Notes under the pieces: generated by a model
The model's input: the letters and a program-made list of their open reading frames with translations, nothing else
Database searches by the model: none
What the model was told of the DNA's origin: nothing
Source of the DNA: a virus
Direction: 5' to 3' (one strand)
Virus record (IMG/VR): IMGVR_UViG_3300008448_000108
Span: 1-54,704 of that record
DNA: 54,704 bases
In this document: in pieces, positions 6,212 through 54,329 of the stretch
How the letters are laid out: each line of letters starts with the position of its first letter
Numbering within the stretch: position 1 is the first letter of the stretch
Translations under genes and position numbers: made by a program

Positions 6212-8035
6212 TTAATCAGATAAAATTACCAAACCAAGTATATCTGAATTAATATGTTTTTTACCCTTATCTATAGATGATTTCAAATCTTCTATTGTTT
6301 TTTCGTAAGCGGTAGTTTTTTGAGTTAGGATATTTATAAATTCTGGGGATGTAATTTGTTCTAATAAATTAAAAACTTCATCAATTGAATCAGAACTAGA
6401 TTTGGCGCTGCTAGTTAAAGATTCAATAACCTGGGGAGTTATAGTGCTATCTTTAATATTATTTAAAATTTTTATAGAGTCTCTTAAGTCAATAAGTATA
6501 TTTTTAAACTTTTCACGATTGTTTTTACAAGATTGATTATACTGGCCCTTTGTATTTTTTATTGCTTCAGGATTCTTTTCATTTAATTTATTATACTCTT
6601 CTACATTCTTTTTTAGGCCATCCAGAGACTCATTGCTTAAGTTAAAGGCATTCTCTAATTTTTTATAAACATCCTTTGCCATGTTCTTGGTGTCATCTGG
6701 AACTGGCACTCCTGCTCGCTTGAGTATTGTAGGATCAGTATAAATCTTATAATCCTGATTGCCATATTTTTTTCTAAAAGAATTTATTATATCATTAGCA
6801 CCAGAGTCTTTTGGAATGGATTGAATCTCAAAGTTTGGATACTCTCCAAAATGAAGATTATATTTTGATGCAATAATTTCCTTTAAATACTTTGGATTAG
6901 GAAATCTTGTTACTACTATAGGCTTAGATTTTTTGTCATAAGAAACCTTTCTTAATGCAGAAAGCATCTTAAAATCATCATTAGATAATGTTTTCATAAA
7001 ATTATCTAAGCTTTTGTTTAGGCTAATAATAATTCCGGCGTCTTTCTTTAAGCCCTTAGACAAGATGGCTTCTACATTTAAATCTTTATATACTTCTTGG
7101 CCTGAGGCATTCTTAATAATAGAGGCTGTATGCCCACCAAGCTTTCTATAAGGTCTATCTACTTCTGTATCTTCAGATACTTTATAAACCCTAATGGTTG
7201 GTGACTGCTCAATTAATCCATCAAAATCAAATATATGAATTTCTTTTTTGGATGGCTTTAAAACATTAGAGATAAAATTAGAAAATATTCTATTTTTTGA
7301 TGCAGTCTTAACAATATTATTATTTACATTTAAAATTGGAAATGACTTCCAACTAGATACAGAATTATTTCCAAGTGTAGAATATTTTATAATGATATTT
7401 TTAGATCCAAAATTTTTTGATATTTTATTTAGTTCACCAATCTTCTTTGAAAATGCATCATGCTTACTAGAGAAGGAAACCCGATTCCCATGACAAAGCC
7501 CTAGTCTGTCAGATAATCCTCCGCATATTTCCAATACATTCTTAACGTCTGCACATCCAAACGTGGCTAGTGTTCCAGGTTGAATATTTCTATAAATCTT
7601 TTTTATTTTATCATTTTTATCTATAAATAAAATGTCTATAGGAAACTTTACAGAACCCATATGATATACAACATCTTCAGGTCTGGAATACTCAAAGACT
7701 AATCCAGCAGACTCAGACAAGTTATCATAAGTTTGCAGTCCTGCAATTTTTTGCTGCATAGTCTTTGCAATATCACAAGAAAATGTTGCAAGAATATCTT
7801 CATCGCTATAGATATCTACACTTAATGTCGATTCTTTTTTATCTTTATCTTTGGCGTAATCTTCCTGTGGTGGACTTATGATGCCACCACTACCATATCC
7901 AAATGGTTCTGGCATAGGATTATGAGATTCTCCTATGGCAAAAGTAGAACGTTCTTGAGAATCTTTTTCTCTAGAAGTTTCTGCACCCATTTCTTTTTCT
8001 TCTGATCCAATCCAAGGCCATGCTTTCTTTTTCAT
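6212..8035 (-). CDS. DUF192 domain fused to HAD-like region and coiled coil
   Basis: This is a 607-residue protein. Residues 81-188 match the DUF192 (UPF0127) pattern: an A-x-T-x-x-Q-K-x-x-GL start, GLVFEY, the Y-H-M-G-S-V-K-F-P-I-D-I-L-F-I-D core, a P-G-T-L-A-T-F-G turn, and a VLEICGG end. Residues 265-450 begin with IHIFDFDG (Asp270, Asp272), resembling HAD-phosphatase motif I, and contain PIVVTRFPN, which could be motif II; the other HAD motifs are unclear. Residues 455-607 are helical and Lys/Glu-rich. The start shares a base with the previous stop (TAATG). DUF192 proteins are usually short, secreted and of unknown function, so this cytoplasmic fusion among head genes is unusual. A virion or assembly role is inferred from position only. 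Confidence 0.75.
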   Translation of the reverse strand: MKKKAWPWIGSEEKEMGAETSREKDSQERSTFAIGESHNPMPEPFGYGSGGIISPPQEDYAKDKDKKESTLSVDIYSDEDILATFSCDIAKTMQQKIAGLQTYDNLSESAGLVFEYSRPEDVVYHMGSVKFPIDILFIDKNDKIKKIYRNIQPGTLATFGCADVKNVLEICGGLSDRLGLCHGNRVSFSSKHDAFSKKIGELNKISKNFGSKNIIIKYSTLGNNSVSSWKSFPILNVNNNIVKTASKNRIFSNFISNVLKPSKKEIHIFDFDGLIEQSPTIRVYKVSEDTEVDRPYRKLGGHTASIIKNASGQEVYKDLNVEAILSKGLKKDAGIIISLNKSLDNFMKTLSNDDFKMLSALRKVSYDKKSKPIVVTRFPNPKYLKEIIASKYNLHFGEYPNFEIQSIPKDSGANDIINSFRKKYGNQDYKIYTDPTILKRAGVPVPDDTKNMAKDVYKKLENAFNLSNESLDGLKKNVEEYNKLNEKNPEAIKNTKGQYNQSCKNNREKFKNILIDLRDSIKILNNIKDSTITPQVIESLTSSAKSSSDSIDEVFNLLEQITSPEFINILTQKTTAYEKTIEDLKSSIDKGKKHINSDILGLVILSD

Positions 8036-9104: not shown

Positions 9105-10832
9105 AGGTCCAGGTGGAGGACCACCTGGAGGTGGTGCGCCCATGTCTGGAGGACCGCCTGGAGGCCCACCAGGAGGCCCGCCTGGGGCTTCCATGCCAGG
9201 TAGCCCTGGAGGTGCTGCTCCGCCTGCTGCACCACCCTCAGGTGATTCTTGAATGACGCTATCCACATCAAGACCCTCAAGCTCTCGCAATCGCATAGTC
9301 TGTAGAGCTTCTGCTTGTTTTAGCTTTATTGTTTCATGAATTGCTTCTTCTTTTAGTCTACGTCTTTCTTCTTCATAGCTTAGTCCAAGGCTTCTGTAGA
9401 GCGTATGTAGAGATATCTGCTTATTTCCAACTAAGTTTGAAATGTTCTGAACATAATCACTCATATCATATAAATTCATATGATTAAAGTCTATAACTGG
9501 AACCTGCAATACTTTTTTACCATTCTGATAAATGAAAAAATCTTGCAACTCAGAAATGGGGGCAAAGATCTTTTGCTCCAGCCATTTCTTAATCATGTTT
9601 CTAAAGATATCATAACGCTGCCTTAAGACCTCTAGACCTACAGATGAGCTGGCATATGTTGCTCCTTCTTGATCCATTAGAGCTTTTGGCACCATAAGGC
9701 CAGCATAAAGATTAGCTAGAATATGCTCAACGTCTGTTCCTATCTCCATAACTCCGCCGTTATATCCTACACGCTCAATTGCAACTCCATCATGAGTTAC
9801 CAATTTAAAATCTTTATCATACTGGGCTTCTTCTAGAGCCATACGCATAGCTTCAATGTCACTTTGAGTTGGTCTATACTCTCCATTGCCAAGCTTAACC
9901 AAAGTCATTGGATTTATCATGCCATCGGCTTGGGCAAATTTAGATTCTCTTAGCTTATCATAAAGCATAAGATCTTTATAAACGGATACTATGATAGAGG
10001 TACCTCTAACATCATATGGTGAGCTTAACAGCTTAAGATGAGAAACGTTTATATTGTCTAAAGGAATGGTCTGGCCTTTTTTAACTGCATCAACAATATG
10101 GCTTGGTAATCTTTTCTTAAGAGTAATATCGGATGGCGCGCTGGAGTTAACCAATCTTTGTAGAGTAGCATCAGGTCTTAGTGATATTATAACTTGATCA
10201 CCAATTGCAGTTTTTTTAACATGAACGTAGTCAGGGTTTAATATAGTAATCCTTTTCCAAGATCCCAAATCTCTGTCTAGTTCTGCATATGGAAAGACCT
10301 CTCCCAACTTGAAGTATTCTAATGCCACACCATAAACTACAGAGTATAAATCTATTCTCTCTGCCATCTCCAAGAAGAACTCTTGAATTTCTTTTACAGG
10401 ATGAGAAATATTTATCTTACTAATTGGAAAGCTAGCATGTAAGTTTATAGCATTTCTAACTATAGGGTGTGTGTCATAAAATATTCTATTCCACGCGTTC
10501 ATTGTAACGCGATCTCTTGGGAGGTTTAGATTCGCAAGTTGAAATAGCGGAGAATAAACCTCTGGCCCCATCATATCTGTTAAGCCACGAGTTGTTGGAA
10601 GTGCAGAAGGACCTACCGTAGCCTTCTTTACCATGGCACCTTTAAAAGCAGGACTGTGTAAGATTGCTGCACCAGGTTTAGAGTTTTCTTCTGATGCTTC
10701 TTTCTTAATCTGAGCATCATGAATTTGGGCTCGTCGAAATTCAGATAATTTTTTCAAACTACCTGAAGATAAAGATTCCTGTACTGATTGTGCTGCAGAA
10801 TTAGATGGCCTACTAGTTCTTCTATCTGACAT
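9096..10832 (-). CDS. Portal protein
   Basis: This is a 578-residue protein forming, by family, the dodecameric vertex through which DNA is packaged. Features in order: a disordered Lys/Ser N-terminus (1-85), the portal core with NAWNRIFYDTHPIVRNAINLH and a helical region (100-400), a segment reading EGATYASSSVGLEVLRQRYDI typical of large-phage portals, a long helix (LSYEEERRRLKEEAIHETIKLKQAEA), and a Pro/Gly-rich tail (about 510-578) with repeated GGPPGGPP and PDMGAPPPGG. It lies directly downstream of the large terminase with an eight-base gap, the classic order. The Pro/Gly tail is not usual for portals and resembles a tract in the protease-scaffold protein. The start has GAGG upstream. 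Confidence 0.87.
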   Translation of the reverse strand: MSDRRTSRPSNSAAQSVQESLSSGSLKKLSEFRRAQIHDAQIKKEASEENSKPGAAILHSPAFKGAMVKKATVGPSALPTTRGLTDMMGPEVYSPLFQLANLNLPRDRVTMNAWNRIFYDTHPIVRNAINLHASFPISKINISHPVKEIQEFFLEMAERIDLYSVVYGVALEYFKLGEVFPYAELDRDLGSWKRITILNPDYVHVKKTAIGDQVIISLRPDATLQRLVNSSAPSDITLKKRLPSHIVDAVKKGQTIPLDNINVSHLKLLSSPYDVRGTSIIVSVYKDLMLYDKLRESKFAQADGMINPMTLVKLGNGEYRPTQSDIEAMRMALEEAQYDKDFKLVTHDGVAIERVGYNGGVMEIGTDVEHILANLYAGLMVPKALMDQEGATYASSSVGLEVLRQRYDIFRNMIKKWLEQKIFAPISELQDFFIYQNGKKVLQVPVIDFNHMNLYDMSDYVQNISNLVGNKQISLHTLYRSLGLSYEEERRRLKEEAIHETIKLKQAEALQTMRLRELEGLDVDSVIQESPEGGAAGGAAPPGLPGMEAPGGPPGGPPGGPPDMGAPPPGGPPPGPPP

Positions 10833-14763: not shown

Positions 14764-14787
14764 ATATTAATTTCAAAATATTAATTT
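14764..14787. repeat. Short direct repeat ATATTAATTT x2
   Basis: Two identical 10-base units separated by four bases overlap the stop of the nucleotidyltransferase gene in the intergenic gap. It could be an operator-like site for the downstream genes or chance in AT-rich DNA. Confidence 0.3.
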
Positions 14788-15542
14788 TTAAAATAATCAG
14801 CTAAGTATTTTTTAGCTATAAGCAGCTCTTTAAACCTTCCAGCCAAAGGCACACTGTTAAACAAATCTAATTCTTTTAAAGACTCTATTGTTTTCTTTTC
14901 ATTTTCTAGGAGTGCCTTGTTGAGCTTAACTGTTGCGTATTTATCTTTTATATTTTTTGAGCTAAATAACTCTTTATTTTCTTTGGCAAACTTTATTATC
15001 TCTGGAGCGATAGTAAAGTCATATCTAGCAGCAAGATTTATTGCTCTATATATTCTCCTAGGATCATCTCGAAATGTTATTTCTGGAGGAACTGGTGTTC
15101 TGACTATTCTATTCTTAATATCATTAAAGCCCATCTTAGTGGGATCAAATATTTTTCCAGTTCGAAGATCTTGATGTAGGGTATTCATAGTAAAGTCTCT
15201 ACTATAAACTTCCAGAAGCATGATATTATCTATCCGTTTAGATAAGTAGTTTTTAACTCCCTCAGAAATAAAGTGACTGGAGAAGTCTATATCATATTTA
15301 TCTGCGAAAACTGTAACGTGAGTATCCTCAGAAACTTCAAAAACTTCATTAATTTTATCTGCAAACAATATTCCTAGTCGCAAAGAATCATTAGAGTTTG
15401 TTGTAATGTCAACATCTGTTGTTTTTATATTTGGTATTTTAAGATAAATATCCCTAGGTACGCCACCAACAATATATGGCTTATATATTTTATATCTTTC
15501 AGCAAGTTCATATATTGTTTTTAGAATGTACTTTAAACTCAT
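14781..15542 (-). CDS. CCA-adding enzyme / poly(A) polymerase-like nucleotidyltransferase
   Basis: This is a 253-residue class II nucleotidyltransferase. Seen in order: VGGVPRD (residues 25-31, normally GGxVRD), catalytic TDVDITT (Asp43, Asp45), RDFTMNTL, FDP, and the neck motif DDPRRIYRAINLAARYDF. These are the hallmark motifs of tRNA nucleotidyltransferases and bacterial poly(A) polymerases. At 253 residues it keeps head and neck but lacks most of the C-terminal tRNA-binding body of the usual ~400-residue enzyme. The likely reaction is addition of C/A residues to RNA 3' ends, for example repair of tRNAs, but substrate is not determined by the sequence. It is unexpected inside the head-gene block. 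Confidence 0.85.
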   Translation of the reverse strand: MSLKYILKTIYELAERYKIYKPYIVGGVPRDIYLKIPNIKTTDVDITTNSNDSLRLGILFADKINEVFEVSEDTHVTVFADKYDIDFSSHFISEGVKNYLSKRIDNIMLLEVYSRDFTMNTLHQDLRTGKIFDPTKMGFNDIKNRIVRTPVPPEITFRDDPRRIYRAINLAARYDFTIAPEIIKFAKENKELFSSKNIKDKYATVKLNKALLENEKKTIESLKELDLFNSVPLAGRFKELLIAKKYLADYFKN

Positions 15543-28437: not shown

Positions 28438-28982
28438 GTTTCAGACCTTGTAACACCCCTAAATCCGCCACGCTTAAAAGGTTTTTGCACCTTTACTGGA
28501 GCTTGATCATTCATAACCCTTTGCTGATGAAGCCGACGCAATCTTTCAGCCTTTTGATCTATATCTTCGTTACCTTCGGATTCGTCATCTTCATCATCTT
28601 CTTGCGGAATAAACTCGGCAGCAACAGACCTACGGATATCTGATATATCATCTTCTTCAAATTCATTATCCACTTCATCATCTTCTGTGTGAGATACTTC
28701 ACGAGGTATAGATTTCCCAGAGCCTGACTTAACTAAATCCATTGCAATCTTTCCGAATCCATCTTTTAATTCATTAAATATAAACAAGGATAGATCGTAA
28801 ATTTGAGACTCGGAAAATCCGCTAGAAAATCGCTGTGAGGAAATCCTATTTTGAATCGAACCAATTATAGATGAATCACGACTAGAGAGTAATCCAGACC
28901 CACATGATGGGCAGATGTTTTTCATAAGTGCAAATCTCATCATCTCATTTACAGAGAACCCACATTCTTTACATTGAATCAT
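28434..28982 (-). CDS. Zinc-ribbon protein with acidic linker
   Basis: This is a 182-residue protein. The N-terminus contains CKECGFSVNEMMRF and CPSCGSGLL, a four-cysteine ribbon. A helical region follows, then a long acidic stretch (DDEVDNEFEEDDISD and EDDEDDESEGNED), and a basic Gly/Arg tail. It overlaps the end of the polymerase C-half gene by four bases (ATGA), so the two are translated in step. A small replication or transcription factor is plausible; no family is recognised. Confidence 0.65.
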   Translation of the reverse strand: MIQCKECGFSVNEMMRFALMKNICPSCGSGLLSSRDSSIIGSIQNRISSQRFSSGFSESQIYDLSLFIFNELKDGFGKIAMDLVKSGSGKSIPREVSHTEDDEVDNEFEEDDISDIRRSVAAEFIPQEDDEDDESEGNEDIDQKAERLRRLHQQRVMNDQAPVKVQKPFKRGGFRGVTRSET

Positions 28983-30013
28983 ATTTTCTTCCCCAAAACA
29001 CCTTGTAGTAAAGCTAGAGATAATCCTCGTTGCCCCATGTATTCATCCACTTTGCAAATTGCTTTCATTGGCAGGCCATCACTTAAAACCGTCATATACT
29101 TCTCGTAATCATCCTGCCAAACTGTTAGTTCCGCTGTTGTTCCCTCTCCATCTTCAACTAAGTATTTGGCGAACTTTTTACCAATATTCTTACCGCGCTT
29201 AATCTTAAATTCTTTAACCAAGGATTTAATGATTACCTCTATTTTAATCTTCTCACCAACTTCTACGGAAGGAATTTTTCTTAGCGGAGTAATACTGGAA
29301 TCTTGCTTAAAGAACCCTTTAAATACTTCATGGAGAGATCCGCTGATTGTTCTTCCTAAAACCTCTCGCTCGTTAACCAGCAGATCCTTGCGTTCCCATT
29401 CATCATGGTACGTAGGGAGCTGAACCTGATCAATAGTTTTTCCTTTCTTTTTTTCCTTTTGAATTAGATCTCGGTAAGTGGCATAGTTGTCAAAGATATC
29501 TTTTCGGGTTCTACCTAGAGACTGAAACGCTCCAGCTTTTGCCATTGCTTCAATTACCCTTTTATTTACCACTCTAGCGTTAGTACGGTCAAAGAAATCT
29601 TCGATAGATTTATAGGGCTGCAGAGCTATAATCTCATCAATTGCAGTCTCTCCAACCCCTTTTAGTGCAGATAGGCCAGTAACAATTTCTTTGTCTTGTA
29701 ATGTCTTATATTTACCACCACTCTTATTCACATCTGGAGGAGTAATTACAATACCCATTTTAGAGCATTCATTTAGATACTCTAATGATTTATCGCTATT
29801 TGGATCCTCGCTATTAAGCAATGCGCACATAAATTGTGTTGGATAGTGACAGCGCAACCAAGCTGTATAGTATGAAATGTGAGAGTAGGAAACAGAGTGA
29901 GAGTTAGAAGTTAAAATACCATTTGACAAATAATACTGATGATCAGGATGCTCAACTTCTAGATCGTAAGTATCAGATTCGCTAACCTCTTTGATGGAGA
30001 GGATCTTTGCCAT
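28979..30013 (-). CDS. dnaE: DNA polymerase III alpha, C-terminal half with C-intein
   Basis: This is a 344-residue protein. Residues 1-37 are a C-intein ending LSNGILTSN; the next residue is Ser38, and from there the chain reads SHSVSYSHISYYTAWLRCHYP, which directly continues the GFNR motif at the end of the N-extein in the 33540-36200 gene. After that come the helix-hairpin-helix region (TGLSALKGVGETAIDEII), a C-terminal domain and an OB-fold-like region (about 245-330). GGAGG four bases before ATG shows it is separately translated. Spliced in trans with the other half it would give a full PolIIIalpha of about 1089 residues. It has 307 extein residues, with no other intein motifs. Confidence 0.93.
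   Translation of the reverse strand: MAKILSIKEVSESDTYDLEVEHPDHQYYLSNGILTSNSHSVSYSHISYYTAWLRCHYPTQFMCALLNSEDPNSDKSLEYLNECSKMGIVITPPDVNKSGGKYKTLQDKEIVTGLSALKGVGETAIDEIIALQPYKSIEDFFDRTNARVVNKRVIEAMAKAGAFQSLGRTRKDIFDNYATYRDLIQKEKKKGKTIDQVQLPTYHDEWERKDLLVNEREVLGRTISGSLHEVFKGFFKQDSSITPLRKIPSVEVGEKIKIEVIIKSLVKEFKIKRGKNIGKKFAKYLVEDGEGTTAELTVWQDDYEKYMTVLSDGLPMKAICKVDEYMGQRGLSLALLQGVLGKKI
29903..30013 (-). other. C-terminal half of a split intein (Int-C, 37 residues)
   Basis: Residues 1-37 of the polymerase C-half. It has block F-like DTYDLEVEHPDHQYYLSNG and block G-like ILTSN; the terminal Asn is at 29903-29905, and the +1 extein residue is Ser (codon TCT, 29900-29902). The length and form resemble Int-C pieces of natural split inteins such as gp41-1 and gp41-8 from metagenomic phages. 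The usual penultimate His is replaced by Ser. Confidence 0.9.
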
Positions 30014-30027
30014 TATACCTCCGTATA

Positions 30028-30249
30028 TTATATTTTGATAAAGGCTGCCTCAGCAGTTCTAAGGCATATAGTTGCGCCACGAACTCGTACAACGACTGTA
30101 TCTAGTTTTGGGTTTATGGAAATGCACCTTATTATCGTACCAGGAATAAAACCCAATTCAAAAAGCCTTAGTCTAATCAAAGATTTAGGATCTATATTTT
30201 TAATAACAGCTTCAGCGTTCTCTTTCATTTCCAGCAAGCTGCCTTGCAT
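30028..30249 (-). CDS. FeoA-like small SH3-fold protein
   Basis: This is a 73-residue protein matching the FeoA domain: LIRLRLFELGFIPGTIIRCI, then a beta strand pair and RGATICLRTAEAAFIKI. FeoA is normally a small partner of the ferrous iron transporter FeoB or a module of DtxR-type regulators; no FeoB is nearby. The ATG at 30249 is chosen because GAGGAG lies four bases upstream, though it overlaps the preceding gene by 38 bases. It sits 14 bases before the polymerase C-half, inside the gap between the split halves. A role in metal sensing or simply in protein binding cannot be told from sequence. Confidence 0.78.
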   Translation of the reverse strand: MQGSLLEMKENAEAVIKNIDPKSLIRLRLFELGFIPGTIIRCISINPKLDTVVVRVRGATICLRTAEAAFIKI

Positions 30250-30736
30250 AAAACTCCTCAGATTCCTGTAAGGCTAAAATTAAAGCGACCCCTTCGGTAC
30301 TTGCATCACCTATTAAAGATCTAAACCATCCATCAGGCTTTAGCTCTAATTCCTCTCTGATACCTTCTATCACAGGAGAAACTACACCCCACTCCACCGA
30401 ATCATATCCATCAAAGTAGCAAAGATATACGGTTTCATCTTTGGCTGCAACTCTAATTAGCTGTAGTATAGCACCTAAAGTTGCTGGATCAGTAAGATCT
30501 GGAATGCAGCCAAAGGTTTCTGCAGTACACATATCACTTATATTTCTAATTCTAATCTCAGGCTTTAAATAATCTAACTTATCTGGGGCGCAATTTCTTA
30601 CGCCAAGCATTCCAGGGATCCATCTCCAAGACTTAAGCTTTACAGCCTTCTTGGCGAAATCGACCAATCGCTCATCCATCATCTTTGATTCCTCATGCTT
30701 TGTATATTGGCGGGAGGTTTTATAAGAAATATCCAT
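30212..30736 (-). CDS. Unknown protein, paralogue of the 32886-33233 gene
   Basis: This is a 174-residue protein. A KLKSWRWIPGM segment near residues 33-43 and PDLTDPATLGAILQLIRV near 79-96 match KNWKWLHGM and PDFSDPATLGCLLHLNRL in the protein at 32886-33233, so the two are paralogues flanking the Tad-like pair. The end contains ALILALQESEEFYAR, matching ALLTALESF there. The fold is unknown to me. ATG follows GAGG and abuts the stop of a possible 26-residue ORF (TAGATG). Confidence 0.7.
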   Translation of the reverse strand: MDISYKTSRQYTKHEESKMMDERLVDFAKKAVKLKSWRWIPGMLGVRNCAPDKLDYLKPEIRIRNISDMCTAETFGCIPDLTDPATLGAILQLIRVAAKDETVYLCYFDGYDSVEWGVVSPVIEGIREELELKPDGWFRSLIGDASTEGVALILALQESEEFYARQLAGNERER

Positions 30737-30821: not shown

Positions 30822-31238
30822 CTAGCAGCCTTCCCAATTTTGATCTTCCAACCTGTAAACTGATATAATCGTTCCATCTTGTGGTGTAGTTACCAATCCA
30901 AAAAGTGGGGAAAAGTTTTGATTTAATGTAACGGTCAACCTTGACTCATTATTTACTTTTACTATCTGAGTAGAAATACTTCTACCATTTTGTGAATGAC
31001 CAGACTCGTTTAAAATCTGATTTAAATTTTGCTGAATATATTCGCAGGGAGATATATCGGACGCTTGGGAGTCGATTGTGGACGCAGCCCTGGCAGAAAG
31101 ATTAACCAAACCTAGTAACTGCTGTCTTTGGCTGAAATACCATCCATAATCAATTATTCCAGAGGATATAGATAAAAGGATTGGGAGTATCAATGCAAAT
31201 TCTACAGCTTGACTACCCCTTCTCTTCTTAATAATCAT
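30822..31238 (-). CDS. TadE-like pseudopilin
   Basis: This is a 138-residue protein with a classic TadE start: basic KKRRGSQAVEFALILPILLS, in which the Glu five residues after the expected cleavage Gly/Ser and the hydrophobic segment (residues 9-30) match the pseudopilins of Flp/Tad pili. It has one membrane helix, with the rest beta-rich and containing two Cys (residue ~65 and C-terminal). The ATG overlaps the tadG-like stop by four bases. TadE/TadG are minor components of bacterial tight-adherence pili and are not part of any phage structure I know. It lies in the gap between the polymerase halves. Confidence 0.85.
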   Translation of the reverse strand: MIIKKRRGSQAVEFALILPILLSISSGIIDYGWYFSQRQQLLGLVNLSARAASTIDSQASDISPCEYIQQNLNQILNESGHSQNGRSISTQIVKVNNESRLTVTLNQNFSPLFGLVTTPQDGTIISVYRLEDQNWEGC

Positions 31239-32494
31239 CTAACCACTCTCAATAGAGATATTAAAACTTCTTGATCTTCACAAGTGACATCATCACCTGA
31301 ATGAGGGACTCTGCTACCCTGACCTGCATCTAGAATTATATTATGATTGCCATTAGCCCTAATGCTTCTAGCCATAATTGTACCACGAAATTCTGCATTA
31401 CCATTTGGATAAACTTCTGATTCTGGCGCGTAAATATTTCCAGAAAAGGTTGTTCTGCCATTAATTCTTACAGTGCGTTCCCCTATAACTCTAATTTCAA
31501 AGCATTCTGGATGTGCAGTATTTCCAGTTACGCCACCACTCAAACTAACATTACCATTAACATAAATAATTGCAGGACTTACAATCCCTTGTGGGCTGGT
31601 ACATCCAGATGCTGCTCCTGAAATATTTATAGATTGGTTACTAGTCGTAGATAAGTCTCCATCTACAAAATAGCTTTCTCCAGAGTAAATAGTTGTAACA
31701 GTACCACCATTTCTTCCGCCTACTCTAACGCCATTAGGTAGGGCAGTATAATCATCAGGATATTCTACAGAGGGTAGAGTAACCTCTAAGCCCATTGGGG
31801 TTGTATCACCATTGAAAGTATAAGCACCGCCATGGGAATCAATACAGCTAATCCCATTGGTTGATTCGCAATCAGGCCCCATATGCATATCAATACCGTT
31901 CTGAACAGATAAGCTTCCACCAAGAGTTATAGATTCTGCATTCGTACATACAGAGCTATTTTCTAATGAGTAATTAATTCCAAGGCTAAAATTTCCTGTT
32001 AACTCAAGACTTTCTGAGGCAAACATAAGGCATGGCCATTCGTTTTCCATTACCGGAACACACTCGTTATTTCTAGTATAAACCTTTCCGGCTACAGATG
32101 ACGAAGATACATAGTAAGATTGATATCCAAAAAGTCCTCCAAAAACAGGAGGCAAGGATGGATTTGTAATTGTAACTTTTACATAGTCACCACTCTCAGT
32201 ATTCTCTACAAATCCACCATCTAAAGAAAAATCACCGATTTGAGTCTCGACTTGCTGATCTCTAATAAAGGAATTATAACTAATATGCATCCTAGCTAGA
32301 GAGGCTGACTCTCCATGCACTAGGGTAATATCATTTTCTTCTGAGTCTAAATATTCTGCAGCAGCTAATGCTGCAGAATCAGAAGCTAATTGAAGGTTTG
32401 ATTTCTCATAACCAATTAGGCTAAGATCAATAGCCAATGCTGCGAATCCTAAAAAAATTGGTAATGCTATTGCTGCATAAGTAGCTGTTCCCAT
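31235..32494 (-). CDS. TadG-like protein with pseudopilin N-terminus
   Basis: This is a 419-residue protein. The N-terminus TYAAIALPIFLGFAALAIDL then S..YEKSNLQLASDSAALAAAEYL is the TadG/Flp-associated pattern: a membrane helix (about 5-28) and the ASDSAALAAA motif. From residue 150 there are repeating Gly/Asn/Ser/Thr beta-strand patterns with several Cys (SSVCTNAESITLGGSLSV, GRTTFSGNIYAPESEVYPNG), like surface adhesin or pilus-tip beta-helix domains. It is co-translated with the TadE-like gene. It would be inner-membrane anchored with an outward C-terminal domain. No other tad genes are visible here. Confidence 0.85.
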   Translation of the reverse strand: MGTATYAAIALPIFLGFAALAIDLSLIGYEKSNLQLASDSAALAAAEYLDSEENDITLVHGESASLARMHISYNSFIRDQQVETQIGDFSLDGGFVENTESGDYVKVTITNPSLPPVFGGLFGYQSYYVSSSSVAGKVYTRNNECVPVMENEWPCLMFASESLELTGNFSLGINYSLENSSVCTNAESITLGGSLSVQNGIDMHMGPDCESTNGISCIDSHGGAYTFNGDTTPMGLEVTLPSVEYPDDYTALPNGVRVGGRNGGTVTTIYSGESYFVDGDLSTTSNQSINISGAASGCTSPQGIVSPAIIYVNGNVSLSGGVTGNTAHPECFEIRVIGERTVRINGRTTFSGNIYAPESEVYPNGNAEFRGTIMARSIRANGNHNIILDAGQGSRVPHSGDDVTCEDQEVLISLLRVVR

Positions 32495-32511: not shown

Positions 32512-32838
32512 TTAATGTGTATTAGAATCCAAAGCAGCCCTAACTGCAGCATCCTTTGATTCTAGTAGCTTTCGGAGAGCAACTTCTGTCTCAGGGCTAT
32601 CAGGAGCACGTCGTGCTACCTTGTCTGCAAGCTCAGAAAATGGCTTTGAGACTTCTTGAAGGTGCAGTGGTAAATGATCAAACTTGAAATATTTCAAAGT
32701 TTTAGATAGCTGCAATGAGCTATAAACAACTGCCCCTACATAGTCAGGTACTGGCATAGAAACCATTACCTCGCCAGAACGAACTCTGACACATCCATTT
32801 GCCATACAATCTGGATTTGCGCAACAACATGTAATCAT
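32512..32838 (-). CDS. Small Cys-rich hypothetical protein
   Basis: This is a 108-residue protein with five cysteines in the first 16 residues (ITCCCANPDCMANGC), suggesting a metal site, then a beta strand pair, a helical middle and a helical C-terminus. It precedes the TadG-like gene by 17 bases, so it belongs to the same transcript. No family is recognised. Confidence 0.65.
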   Translation of the reverse strand: MITCCCANPDCMANGCVRVRSGEVMVSMPVPDYVGAVVYSSLQLSKTLKYFKFDHLPLHLQEVSKPFSELADKVARRAPDSPETEVALRKLLESKDAAVRAALDSNTH

Positions 32839-32885: not shown

Positions 32886-33233
32886 TTAAAAACTTTCAAG
32901 AGCTGTTAGTAATGCGTCTACCTCATTAGAATTCCTTAAGACTGTTGTGATCCATAGTTCAAAATTTCCAACACGCCATACATTTGCTCCTAAATGATAG
33001 GCAAATAAATCTGGTTTATTTGAGGAAAGTCTATTTAAATGTAATAAGCATCCTAATGTAGCTGGATCACTAAAATCTGGAATTAGTTCTGGAGGTAGAG
33101 AAAAATTAGCATCTACTCTTCCAGCTTCACCAGTTTCATAATCAACCCAACGCATACCATGTAGCCATTTCCAATTCTTACATCTGACCGCTCTCTGCCC
33201 TAGTTCTAATAACACTTCTAAAGGTAAATTCAT
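32886..33233 (-). CDS. Unknown protein, paralogue of the 30212-30736 gene
   Basis: This is a 115-residue protein: an AVRCKNWKWLHGMRW segment, then PDFSDPATLGCLLHLNRL and ALLTALESF at the C-terminus. All three blocks recur in the 174-residue protein at 30212-30736. The family is unknown to me. It lies three bases after the upstream gene. Confidence 0.7.
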   Translation of the reverse strand: MNLPLEVLLELGQRAVRCKNWKWLHGMRWVDYETGEAGRVDANFSLPPELIPDFSDPATLGCLLHLNRLSSNKPDLFAYHLGANVWRVGNFELWITTVLRNSNEVDALLTALESF

Positions 33234-33236
33234 AGC

Positions 33237-33533
33237 TCATCCATAATGTTCACTATTTTTAATTGCAGTAATGGCATCTTCATAGGCTGCAGCACATAGA
33301 GGAATATCTGTAGAGTCCATCTTTCTCTTTAAGAACTCTAAAATTAATTTTCTTTCTCTCATTTCACCTAAGATTTCACTTGCTTCTGGATTCGGCCAAG
33401 ATGACCTATCTTCATAGTCTCGAATTATATTGTCTGCTTTGGCTACTAGTTGCCAAGCCCATTCTGCTGCAAATTCCTTATCCTCTAATCTGATAAAGAA
33501 TTCCTCAATAAAGTCATCTTTTGTATATAGCAT
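33237..33533 (-). CDS. Small hypothetical protein after the polymerase N-half
   Basis: This is a 98-residue, acidic, helical protein with a Trp-rich patch (AAEWAWQLVAKADNIIRDYE) and a C-terminal YEDAITAIKN. It starts six bases after the stop of the N-intein gene and is therefore the first cargo gene between the split polymerase halves. It has no homing-endonuclease motif (no GIY-YIG, LAGLIDADG or HNH). No family is recognised. Confidence 0.65.
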   Translation of the reverse strand: MLYTKDDFIEEFFIRLEDKEFAAEWAWQLVAKADNIIRDYEDRSSWPNPEASEILGEMRERKLILEFLKRKMDSTDIPLCAAAYEDAITAIKNSEHYG

Positions 33534-33539
33534 ACTTCC

Positions 33540-33854
33540 TCACTTATTAACAACTATTTCTAGGTTATCTTCAATGATCTTACAGAGTGGTAACATCTCA
33601 CCTGTATTAGTTCTGAATTTATGATTAATTGTACATGTTACACTTGAGCCATTATCTAATTGTACTTCAAACACTTTTAGTTTTCCATGATAATGATTAT
33701 CTTTTACTTGAATAACTACATCTTTTCCGGACTCCTCATCTCTGCTACGAACCCAACATCCTGGCTGTACATTCTGAATTTCAACATCTTGCCAAAGTTC
33801 ACGCCCTGAAGAGTCTCTGGTCATGATGCTGATTAATTCATCAAACCTCAAGGA
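33540..33854 (-). other. N-terminal half of a split intein (Int-N, 104 residues)
   Basis: Residues 783-886 of the polymerase N-half. Ser1 (TCC at 33852-33854) follows extein Arg (CGC). It has block A-like SLRFDELISIMTRD, a block B-like segment SSVTCTINHKFRT holding the TxxH form, and a C-terminal tail ending EIVVNK before a stop. There are no homing-endonuclease motifs. Fusion of this piece to the 37-residue Int-C would give an intein of about 141 residues, a normal mini-intein size. Confidence 0.92.
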
Positions 33855-36200
33855 GCGGTTGAAGCCATATAGGCCAAATGGTTCAATTTGCTCATCCCAG
33901 ATTCTCTTTGCTTCTTCATATTTCATGCCAGATACTTTCATGCAATCTGCAATAAAATTAGCTTCTGTTTTAAGAACTAGATCTGGATCCTTACCCTTTA
34001 GCTTTGTAATTTTGCGAAGAGCATCTGCCTGGTTAAGATCCCAACCTGCACAATCCTTTGCGATTGTCATCATTCCTTCCTCATAAAGAGAGACGCCATA
34101 AGTTTTCTTTAGAGAGTTCTCCATTTTTGGATGAATATATTCAATATCTTCTACTCCAAGCTTTCTGTTGATATAATCATTTCTTTGATCTGGAGAACAG
34201 GAGGGGCGACCCAAGGCATTGATATCTGAGATTTCCTCAATGTTTCTTGGCTTAATCTTCATACAAAGTGGCGTTAGTGATGATTCCAACTGAAAGACAC
34301 CAGCAGTTTCACCTCGTCCAATCATCTTGAAGGTGTCTGTATCACCCAAGGGAATGTTATCAATCTCAATTTCTTCACCCTTGTTTTCTTTGATAATTCT
34401 AAAGGCATCATCAATAACATTTAAGGTATTCAAGCCAAGAAGGTCCATCTTGATTAGACCATTATCTTCACACCGAGTTTTTTCCCACTGAGTAACTACA
34501 AGCCCTGATTCAGCATCAATTCTTAGCGGAGCAACTTCATAAAGTGGACGATCACTAATAACTACACCTGCAGCATGAACACTCCAGTTTCTAGTTAGAC
34601 CTTGGAGCTTACAGGCGTTTTCATATAGCTCTGGATATTTTTTCATGTAGGCTGCAAACTCTTTGCTTTCTTTCATTGCCTGCTCTACGGTTTCTGAGTC
34701 GGGCATGATAGATGTTAAATGATTTGCAATTTTAAATGCTTCTGATTTATCACCACCTAATTCAAGGCTTCTGGCTACGTCTTTAATAATAACTTTTGGT
34801 GAGAGAGTAGACCAATTACTAATGGATGCAACCTTTTCTGCACCATATTTTTCTTTCAGATACTCTTTTACCTTTGCAGGGTCTGCGAAATCCGAATCAA
34901 TATCGGGGAAGCTTTTCTTCTCTTTATTCTGAAATCGCTCAAAAAGTAGATCATATTTTATGGGATCAACTGTTGTAATTCCAGTTAAATAGGCAACAAT
35001 CGAGCCTGCCGCGCTGCCTCTCGCGGGTCCGGTAGGCATCTTCTGATCTTTAGCCCAATTAATAAAATCTGCAACAATTAGCATATAAGAAGAGAAGTTC
35101 TTTTCCTCTAGTACGTTAAGCTCTTTTTTTACTCGATCCCAATATTCACGCTTCTGATCATCCGTTAAGTCTACTAGCTTCTCTTTAAATCCCATCATGC
35201 ATCGGTAACGTAGATAGGATTTATCCTCTTCTACATCAGGACAAGCCTTTGCACTCCAGCTTTTAAACTTCTGATAATCCTTTTCTTGCTGAATTGGAAA
35301 CTTTGGAAGAATAGCACCTTTTGGCTCAATATAAGTTGGATTGTCACAAGAATTTAAAATCTTGATAGAATTTTCCATTCCCTTCTTGGCAATATCTGGT
35401 CCAAAAAAGGATGTAATTTCTTCATATGTTTTAAGATACATATCTTGCACGCCATAACGAAATCTATCAGGATCATTCACTGGTTTCTTATCTTTGATGG
35501 CTAACATGAAATCGTGATACTTGGCGTGATCCTTATCTCGATAGTGTGCATCACAAGTGATAACGTATGGAATTTTTTTATCATGAGAAAGTCTAATCAT
35601 TGCTTCATTTAGCTTTCTTTGATTAACTTCCTTGCCATTCTTTCCTGTGGCTTGGAGATCATGTGGCTGGATCTCAAGGAAAAAACGATCTTTAAAAATA
35701 GCATTAAACCGATCAAGATAGCATAGGGCTTCTTGTTCGTTTTCTTCGGTAATTAGAGTTTTTGCAATCAGTCCATTAGAGCAGGCAGTAAGAGCAATAA
35801 CTCCTTGGTTGAATTGCTCAATATGCTCCCAAGAAAGTCGTGGGGTTTGCTTACCCATATAGCCAGAGACTTGATTCCGATAAGCCTCATAGTTTAGGCG
35901 AAGAATATTTCGATAACCTACTTCGTTTTGAGCAAGGAGAACCAAATGGTAATTCTTCTTATCAGCAAGATCTGGAGTGAAGTATGCCTCCATACCTGGA
36001 ATCAATTTAACTCCATGCTTCTTGCTAGCCTTCCAGGCATCAAAGATTGCAGTCATTGTACCGTGATCTGTAACTGCAACGCCAGGGTGATCTACCTCTT
36101 TTGCGCGAATAAATAAATCCTCTACATCATTCATACCGTCTAATGGAGAACCCAATTCGGTATGATTGTGCAAAGACACAAATGGTCCTGAAATTCCCAT
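33540..36200 (-). CDS. dnaE: DNA polymerase III alpha, N-terminal half with N-intein
   Basis: This is an 886-residue protein. The PHP domain starts with FVSLHNHTE (His11, His13) and DHG; the polymerase core has GPARGSAAGSIVAYLTG and the catalytic FPDIDSDF (Asp433, Asp435), and a third metal Asp is likely in LIKMDLLGLN. The N-extein ends YGFNR at residue 782. Residues 783-886 are an N-intein. The remaining polymerase, starting SHSVSYSH, is encoded in the 28979-30013 gene. Seven genes lie between the halves. Without trans-splicing this half would lack the C-terminal fingers continuation and OB fold. There is no 3'-5' exonuclease insertion. GGAGG precedes the start. Confidence 0.95.
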   Translation of the reverse strand: MGISGPFVSLHNHTELGSPLDGMNDVEDLFIRAKEVDHPGVAVTDHGTMTAIFDAWKASKKHGVKLIPGMEAYFTPDLADKKNYHLVLLAQNEVGYRNILRLNYEAYRNQVSGYMGKQTPRLSWEHIEQFNQGVIALTACSNGLIAKTLITEENEQEALCYLDRFNAIFKDRFFLEIQPHDLQATGKNGKEVNQRKLNEAMIRLSHDKKIPYVITCDAHYRDKDHAKYHDFMLAIKDKKPVNDPDRFRYGVQDMYLKTYEEITSFFGPDIAKKGMENSIKILNSCDNPTYIEPKGAILPKFPIQQEKDYQKFKSWSAKACPDVEEDKSYLRYRCMMGFKEKLVDLTDDQKREYWDRVKKELNVLEEKNFSSYMLIVADFINWAKDQKMPTGPARGSAAGSIVAYLTGITTVDPIKYDLLFERFQNKEKKSFPDIDSDFADPAKVKEYLKEKYGAEKVASISNWSTLSPKVIIKDVARSLELGGDKSEAFKIANHLTSIMPDSETVEQAMKESKEFAAYMKKYPELYENACKLQGLTRNWSVHAAGVVISDRPLYEVAPLRIDAESGLVVTQWEKTRCEDNGLIKMDLLGLNTLNVIDDAFRIIKENKGEEIEIDNIPLGDTDTFKMIGRGETAGVFQLESSLTPLCMKIKPRNIEEISDINALGRPSCSPDQRNDYINRKLGVEDIEYIHPKMENSLKKTYGVSLYEEGMMTIAKDCAGWDLNQADALRKITKLKGKDPDLVLKTEANFIADCMKVSGMKYEEAKRIWDEQIEPFGLYGFNRSLRFDELISIMTRDSSGRELWQDVEIQNVQPGCWVRSRDEESGKDVVIQVKDNHYHGKLKVFEVQLDNGSSVTCTINHKFRTNTGEMLPLCKIIEDNLEIVVNK

Positions 36201-52598: not shown

Positions 52599-54329
52599 TT
52601 ATGAATAAGTATTCTTGATACCTCTACATATACAAGTTGCTATAGTTTGCGCGTTAGTAGTGCCAGATGGCGTAACATAGATAAACCATTGATTTGGATC
52701 ATACCCACTTGCCGAAGCATTTAAGGTCCATGTACAATTACCAGGATTTGATGAGGTAGATAGTGCTGTTGAAGCAAGTCCGGTATCTTCGATAGTTGGA
52801 ACACCACTATTATCCGCCGTAATTAAAAAATCTTTCTTGTATCCATAAGAGTTTACACTACCTACTTCTGAAACTAAAAACTCACAAGATAAATATATAG
52901 AGGTATTACTCGGTATAATTCCGGTTTGTGATATGGCATCACAATACAAGGTGACATTGCCTGATGTAGATGTGTTTATTAGCTTTGAGAAAATTAAATT
53001 AATTTCCTGAGTACATCCTGAAACACCAGATACTGTTTCTGCAGAAGAAAATGCTCTTTCTCCATATGAGATAGCTTTAGCATTTATTCCATGAGCCATA
53101 GAGTATGAGCCGGTAACTATATTATCTTTTCCACCAATAATTACACCATATTGCCCCGAAGATGTATTATTAGTTCCAGCGAGAATTGCAGAATTATTTA
53201 CTGAAGTTATTTCATTATATTGTCCGCTAATAATTGATGAATAATCTCCAGAAACTAGATTACCATATCCGCCTAAAATAGAAGAATATCCGTCTGCTGC
53301 ATCTATTTCGTTATCATATCCACCTAAGATGGCAGAATATACTGATTCAACTCTGTTATTATATCCAGAGCCAACAAAGCTGTAATCGCCAGCAGCAGAA
53401 ATAGAATTATCATATCCACTTGCTATAGAAGAATGGGATCCAAAAATAGCGTTACTATAACCTGAGCCTATAAAGCTATAATCAGCAGCAGCAGATATAC
53501 TGTTGTCCTCACCACCGGCTATAGATGCATGGCTTCCAGATATAGTGTTGGTATGCCCGCCTAGAATAGAGGAATAGCCATCTGGTGCATTTATTTGATT
53601 ATCATAACCGCTTAAGATAGTAGAGTATTCTGATTCAACTCTATTGCTGTAACCAGAGCCAATAAAGCAATAGTCACCTGTAGAAATAACAACATTCTCA
53701 AGACCACCTGCTATTGTAGATCCTTCCCCATCTGATCTGTTATTCTTTCCAAATACTGTGGAAAACTGACCAACGTTCGCAGTATCCCATTGACTGCCTT
53801 CCGCAATCCCACTTCTAAATGCACCTTTAGATTTATCAAAATAAAATCTTGAGTAATGATCTGAGTCTCCATCATCTTCTAGTTGATCTGAGCCAAAAAC
53901 AAAATCTTCTACTGCCATGTCTCCGGGGCTGTTAGAGATTACATCAGAGTCTCTGGCAAAAGCAAAGTCATCTCGTACTTTCGATAGATCTAGATAATAA
54001 TATTTATCTCCATCAATAAATCTATATTCTGGAATCGCATCATCTTGTGTGGTAGACTTAGCAACAGTTCTTGTATTTATGGCGCCATTAGCTATACTGC
54101 TATTTTGCAGTTTTCCAGTAACATGGTCGCTTAAATCAATCTTTTGTGCGTGACCATCCTGATGCTTACCATCGTGAATGTGGCCTGCTACCTGGGGATC
54201 TCCTTCTTCATATAAGGATCCATCTGGACTACCATAAAGTCCACCATACCAAGTATTGGCAGCCTCAGCCGTAATAATTGTTGAAGATGGGACATATTTA
54301 GTTAATTTTTTACTGCTAGTCTTTGCCAT
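52599..54329 (-). CDS. Tail fibre / adhesin with YadA-like beta-roll repeats
   Basis: This is a 576-residue protein. The N-terminus includes NTWYGGLYGSPDGSL and a His-rich GHIHDGKHQDGHAQKIDL (His-x-His forms like the metal-binding motifs of phage fibres). From about residue 185 to 430 there are about twelve 14-17-residue repeats of the form Y-S-x-I-x-G-G-Y-x-N-x-I, typical of trimeric, beta-roll adhesin shafts such as YadA heads. The C-terminal 120 residues are Gly/Ser/Thr-rich and beta-like, probably the receptor-binding or trimerisation domain. No chaperone gene is adjacent. It would form the host-contact part of the virion. Confidence 0.85.
   Translation of the reverse strand: MAKTSSKKLTKYVPSSTIITAEAANTWYGGLYGSPDGSLYEEGDPQVAGHIHDGKHQDGHAQKIDLSDHVTGKLQNSSIANGAINTRTVAKSTTQDDAIPEYRFIDGDKYYYLDLSKVRDDFAFARDSDVISNSPGDMAVEDFVFGSDQLEDDGDSDHYSRFYFDKSKGAFRSGIAEGSQWDTANVGQFSTVFGKNNRSDGEGSTIAGGLENVVISTGDYCFIGSGYSNRVESEYSTILSGYDNQINAPDGYSSILGGHTNTISGSHASIAGGEDNSISAAADYSFIGSGYSNAIFGSHSSIASGYDNSISAAGDYSFVGSGYNNRVESVYSAILGGYDNEIDAADGYSSILGGYGNLVSGDYSSIISGQYNEITSVNNSAILAGTNNTSSGQYGVIIGGKDNIVTGSYSMAHGINAKAISYGERAFSSAETVSGVSGCTQEINLIFSKLINTSTSGNVTLYCDAISQTGIIPSNTSIYLSCEFLVSEVGSVNSYGYKKDFLITADNSGVPTIEDTGLASTALSTSSNPGNCTWTLNASASGYDPNQWFIYVTPSGTTNAQTIATCICRGIKNTYS
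53030..53770 (-). repeat. Array of ~48-base degenerate repeats in the fibre gene
   Basis: About a dozen degenerate units encode the YadA-like beta-roll, with conserved codons for TAT-CC-(A/G)CC-AATA-type Gly-Gly-Tyr and Asn. This is a coding repeat, not CRISPR: there are no spacers of even length and the units vary. Confidence 0.8.

Follow-up and report, generated by a model that had tools for sequence, protein, structure and literature searches.

TadG- and TadE-like minor pilin genes between the split-intein dnaE halves of a phage, and their relation to a Myxococcota Tad pilus tip cluster

Why would a phage encode proteins that resemble the subunits of a bacterial pilus? The question is raised by a 54.7 kb linear virus record, analysed over its whole length and referred to here as the window, which carries portal, terminase, RecA/UvsX-like, GroEL, SbcC-like and DNA polymerase III genes. 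A first-pass annotation of this DNA had recognised TadE and TadG signatures in two neighbouring genes, suggested that they are co-translated and linked them to bacterial Tad pili. The two genes are indeed co-directional and lie where that annotation had placed them.

The smaller gene (30822-31238, minus strand) encodes a TadE-like minor pilin of 138 aa. The signature proposed for its N-terminus is borne out by a Pfam TadE (PF07811) match of 8.1e-10 and 39.1 bits, well over the cut-off of 22.9, and the family is again found over the cut-off (E 1.4e-11) when the viral record itself is scanned. The protein opens with a putative class III prepilin leader, MIIKKRRG followed by SQAVE (31215-31238, minus strand), recognised both by reading the sequence and by a pattern scan; within KKRRG-SQAVE, cleavage is predicted after the Gly, with Glu at +5. 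Among the 54 ORFs of the window tested, this is the only one that shows the leader pattern of a basic pair, Gly, three or four residues, Glu and Phe/Leu. TadE and the TadG-like protein each contain one hydrophobic N-terminal helix. The AlphaFold2 model of TadE (pLDDT 88) is pilin-like, with a helix spanning residues 7-53, a second helix and a three-stranded sheet, i.e., the predicted long N-terminal helix and beta sheet of a pilin fold. A Foldseek comparison of this good model with the PDB gives nothing significant.

The larger gene (31235-32494, minus strand) encodes a TadG-like large minor pilin of 419 aa, composed of a helix at about aa 8-29, a pilin-like region and a C-terminal beta domain. 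The signature reported for it stands insofar as both the Pfam Tad family (PF13400; 4.8e-8, 33.6 bits, cut-off 22.3; aa 2-46, 32357-32491, minus strand) and DUF7305 (1e-11; aa 276-388, 31331-31669, minus strand) are matched above their cut-offs, but it requires one correction, namely that no basic leader precedes the helix. The reading frame starts at the N-terminal end of the helix, and two codons before it there is an in-frame stop. The absence of a leader is unusual for a pilin. It recurs in the related phage locus L003, in the relative from the Myxococcota-phylum genome G310 discussed below and in one G323 relative, and the phage protein is filed, on sequence grounds, as TadG-like, within a leaderless subgroup common to cellular relatives. 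In the scan of the viral record itself, the TadG N-terminus appears as a second, sub-threshold match. The surface-type beta domain noted earlier on this protein is recovered as DUF7305, together with a sub-threshold Pfam match to an ice-binding-like adhesive domain, and is presumed to be the tip or adhesive domain of TadG. The fold model, built from three sequences, is poor (pLDDT 41), and the best matches of this low-confidence model are ice-binding proteins (E 2.5e-3). All eight cysteines of TadG are kept in the second phage lineage. A sequence search of solved structures with both proteins yields no match.

The proposed co-translation has a visible counterpart in a four-base ATGA overlap between the tadG stop and the tadE start (31235-31238, minus strand), which is also present in G310 and from which translational coupling may be expected. 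In the window and in G310 alike, TadG is encoded beside tadE. The third member of the tip trimer, TadF/KilL, is missing from the phage, so that two of the three minor pilins of a Tip are represented. In agreement with the annotated lack of these partners in the window, neither a prepilin peptidase nor, above the cut-off, a TadA-type secretion ATPase is found in the window (G000) or in the related phage assemblies G001 and G002, all of which are fragments. The phage records, as fragments, do not hold a complete Tad system; consequently, the phage proteins would need the machine of the host.

The pair resides inside a 3.5 kb cargo slot that separates the two halves of a split-intein dnaE. One half (33540-36200, minus strand) encodes the N-terminal part of DNA polymerase III alpha and a terminal intein N-half (about 33540-33854), and the other half (28979-30013, minus strand) encodes an intein C-half (about 29903-30013) followed by the C-terminal part of the polymerase. 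Aligned to the same phage polymerase family, the halves span positions 44-794 and 793-1054 of the model and nearly abut. The remaining cargo, also on the minus strand, consists of a FeoA-domain protein of 73 aa (30028-30249; Pfam 1.3e-14), a 174 aa ORF (30212-30736), a conserved phrog_1761 protein (32512-32838; 84% in L003), a 115 aa ORF (32886-33233; 54% in L003), to which the 174 aa ORF is linked via a shared slot protein of L003, and a 98 aa ORF (33237-33533; 87% in L003). The tested slot ORFs of the window have no match among defence-system models. Most relatives with both dnaE halves carry a single slot ORF, usually of about 340-430 aa. It often begins within the intein frame and may be homing-endonuclease-like, as faintly hinted by a ROS/MUCR finger and a sub-threshold DUF559 match. 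Two relatives, L017 and L020, contain a continuous intein within one ORF, and some show short gaps at the dnaE break. The slot of L003 also encodes a TnpB-like protein with a Cas12f1-like TNB domain (6540-7754) and an N6/N4 DNA methylase (9186-9992). Outside the slot, the window encodes a CCA-adding-enzyme-like protein with a poly(A) polymerase head domain (14781-15542), with no tRNA gene found in the window, and a protein of 576 aa that contains a beta-roll repeat of the antifreeze type (52599-54329; Pfam 4e-10), possibly a fibre or decoration protein.

A TadG protein 57% identical to that of the window is found at the same place, between split dnaE halves, in G001 (178 kb) and G002 (148 kb). 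Over 21 kb these two are identical but for one base, and they are counted as one lineage in two assemblies, so that TadG is carried by two phage lineages in total and TadE by one, being known only from the assembly of the window; no TadE is found in the L003 slot or in the G001/G002 record fragments. Between the two lineages TadG is under constraint (pN 0.31 vs pS 0.70, with synonymous sites near saturation), and its dN of 0.40 exceeds that of DnaE-N or RecA roughly sixfold (core genes 0.06-0.07). Such fast but intact change would fit a protein facing a variable partner. The records of 24 further loci fetched with a dnaE alignment hold no Tad match, TadG pattern scans across viral contigs return nothing beyond G001 and G002, and searches of plasmid and annotated-phage collections with both proteins give no matches. 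Pattern scans for TadE gave nothing at first and later two weak, unrelated TadE-like ORFs in large viral contigs (L126, 7848-8327; L127, 7995-8390). Both score above the Pfam cut-off and stand alone, no TadG having been found nearby; TadE-like genes may recur in large phages.

The closest cellular counterpart comes from a profile search. When 379 Myxococcota-phylum genomes are searched with a profile of the phage TadG sequences alone, one strong full-length match is obtained, in G310 (271 bits, E 1.7e-80), and the next genome follows at 60 bits. Phage and G310 proteins share 35% identity over 409 aa for TadG (E 6e-66) and 35% over 137 aa for TadE, the latter ending in VQRLEDQLNASCG in G310 and in VYRLEDQNWEGC in the phage. 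The G310 pair keeps the gene order and the ATGA overlap of the phage and adjoins proC on a contig of 60% GC, whereas the phage pair has a phage-like GC content of about 38%. In G310 the pair is followed by a second TadE and a vWA-domain TadG, giving a tadG-tadE-tadE-tadG(vWA) cluster, and another contig encodes CpaB, a secretin, TadZ, TadA, TadB and TadC. Separate TadG and TadE trees, which are small and in the case of TadE have long branches, each join the phage to G310 (support 100/99 and 92/89). Profile searches covered Myxococcota and Pseudomonadota; in 398 sampled Pseudomonadota genomes, a profile including G310 gives partial matches only, of at most 45 bits. An initial scan of genome contigs with the two-lineage TadG alignment found no match, its exact patterns probably being too specific.

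Collectively, the recurrence of the pair, its order and its overlap in a genome of the Myxococcota phylum that also encodes Tad machinery supports the earlier proposals of a link to bacterial Tad pili and of a host origin. The first-pass annotation had named tad loci in the likely host and a host-gene phylogeny as informative checks, and G310 provides both Tad machinery and a tip-type cluster, while the two trees agree in pairing it with the phage. Taken at the sequence level, this suggests that the phage pair was borrowed from a host bacterium. TadG-like genes adjoining TadE genes are common in that order, and from the wide cellular distribution and the fuller cellular cluster we infer that the transfer ran from bacterium to phage. 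As judged from the tadG/tadE genes alone, the host would belong to the Myxococcota; a search for a terminase relative in the 379 Myxococcota-phylum genomes, run without a positive control, found none.

A functional frame is offered by Myxococcus xanthus, whose Kil (Tad) pilus has interchangeable tips formed by four TadE/F/G-like minor-pilin clusters. These tips prime the pilus and set prey recognition, with a variable domain exposed on the large pilin (PMC12075869). Like the phage pair, the KilLMN Tips are small TadE/F/G-type minor-pilin clusters in Myxococcota, with one large pilin that carries a variable C-terminal tip domain, and they are encoded outside the main tad locus (PMC12075869). 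The phage pair differs in being phage-borne, in having two of the three subunit types, in its leaderless TadG and in its DUF7305/ice-binding-like tip, and the putative likeness to KilLMN concerns cluster make-up and domain layout. With G310 the resemblance extends to gene order, the ATGA overlap, the domains and an identity of 35% for either protein, whereas the G310 cluster is cellular, has 60% GC and includes an extra TadE and a vWA TadG; the phage keeps two of the genes. Interchangeable Myxococcus Tad Tip complexes, left unmentioned by the first-pass annotation, would be, by analogy, the best comparison for the phage pair.

On balance, somewhat better than even chances are given to the pair being a fragment that was captured from a Tip cluster of a Myxococcota Tad (Kil-like) pilus and that re-tips or jams the host pilus. 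This reading follows from the Pfam families, the G310 synteny, the joint phylogeny and the retention of TadG at one locus in two phage lineages. TadG would be the large minor pilin bearing the beta-rich tip domain, and TadE the small minor pilin made together with it. The phage would express both in the host inner membrane, the host prepilin peptidase would cut the TadE leader, and the pair would join host minor pilins as an alternative priming or tip complex. The outcome would most likely be a host pilus with a phage-coded tip or a jammed pilus. A more specific version, in which the phage TadG/TadE tip replaces the host tips of a contact-dependent predation pilus and the predator binds other targets or none, is doubtful. 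At a guess, the likeliest benefit is that the pilus is changed or blocked as a target for competing phages, or that the attachment of the infected predator is changed. Of the roles suggested in the first-pass annotation, a hijacked pilus, a superinfection block and a decoy component may each apply, with no preference among them. Counted against the Tip reading are the absent TadG leader, the missing TadF/KilL, the TadG model with pLDDT 41 and the restriction to two phage lineages; retention of TadG without a detected TadE in the G001/G002 fragments argues against the pair being always needed together.

The missing leader and the TadG without a detected TadE in the second phage also fit a Tad-derived surface adhesin untied from the pilus. 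It would lie in the envelope or be displayed, serving for adhesion or for the masking of a receptor, and TadE would be a dispensable partner. The eight conserved cysteines, which suggest folding outside the cytoplasm, and the resemblance of the beta domain to ice-binding adhesins point the same way. However, the G310 relative is likewise leaderless inside a tad tip cluster, and the window retains a TadE with a proper leader, which makes this explanation unlikely. A head or tail decoration role for the beta domain, unrelated to Tad function, would correspond to the virion-structural alternative raised in the first-pass annotation. Beta-rich repeats do occur in phage fibres, and the window encodes another beta-roll protein (52599-54329), but the N-terminal pilin helix, the predicted co-translation with TadE and the location among replication genes argue otherwise; neither a PHROG match nor a convincing viral fold match was obtained, albeit with a weak TadG model, and such a role is highly improbable.

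The variable slot content among relatives (a single nuclease-like ORF, a continuous intein, TnpB, a methylase) and the far faster change of TadG than of core genes could also reflect passenger cargo, that is, host genes caught in the split-intein dnaE slot with little or no phage function. Against this reading, both lineages retain an intact TadG in synteny, with synonymous sites near saturation and pN well below pS, and we regard it as quite unlikely. Least credible is the assembly error raised in the first-pass annotation, in which host DNA was joined into the phage contig. Tad genes are rare in phages, with no match in the annotated phage collection, yet two further assemblies have this gene at the corresponding locus, so that a host/phage chimera is rejected for TadG, and the genes have phage-like GC between intact flanking slot genes.

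For phage action on a host pilus there is precedent. Type IV pili are switched off for superinfection exclusion by the phage proteins Pf4 pVII, D3112 gp05, DMS3 Aqs1 and vB_Pae_QDWS gp21 (PMC11436027), and Caulobacter Tad pili serve as phage receptors (PMC11067988). The phage pair would resemble the four inhibitors as phage-coded proteins with such an action; they differ in that their targets are Pseudomonas type IVa pili. To our knowledge they are inhibitors of other kinds, none of them a pilus-subunit homologue. The literature searched yielded no case of minor pilins carried by a phage and homologous to the tip of a Myxococcota Tad pilus. If active, the pair would be a tool for altering the surface recognition of predatory bacteria, a pointer to the host of a group of large uncultured phages and a simple test of Tad tips as exchangeable modules.
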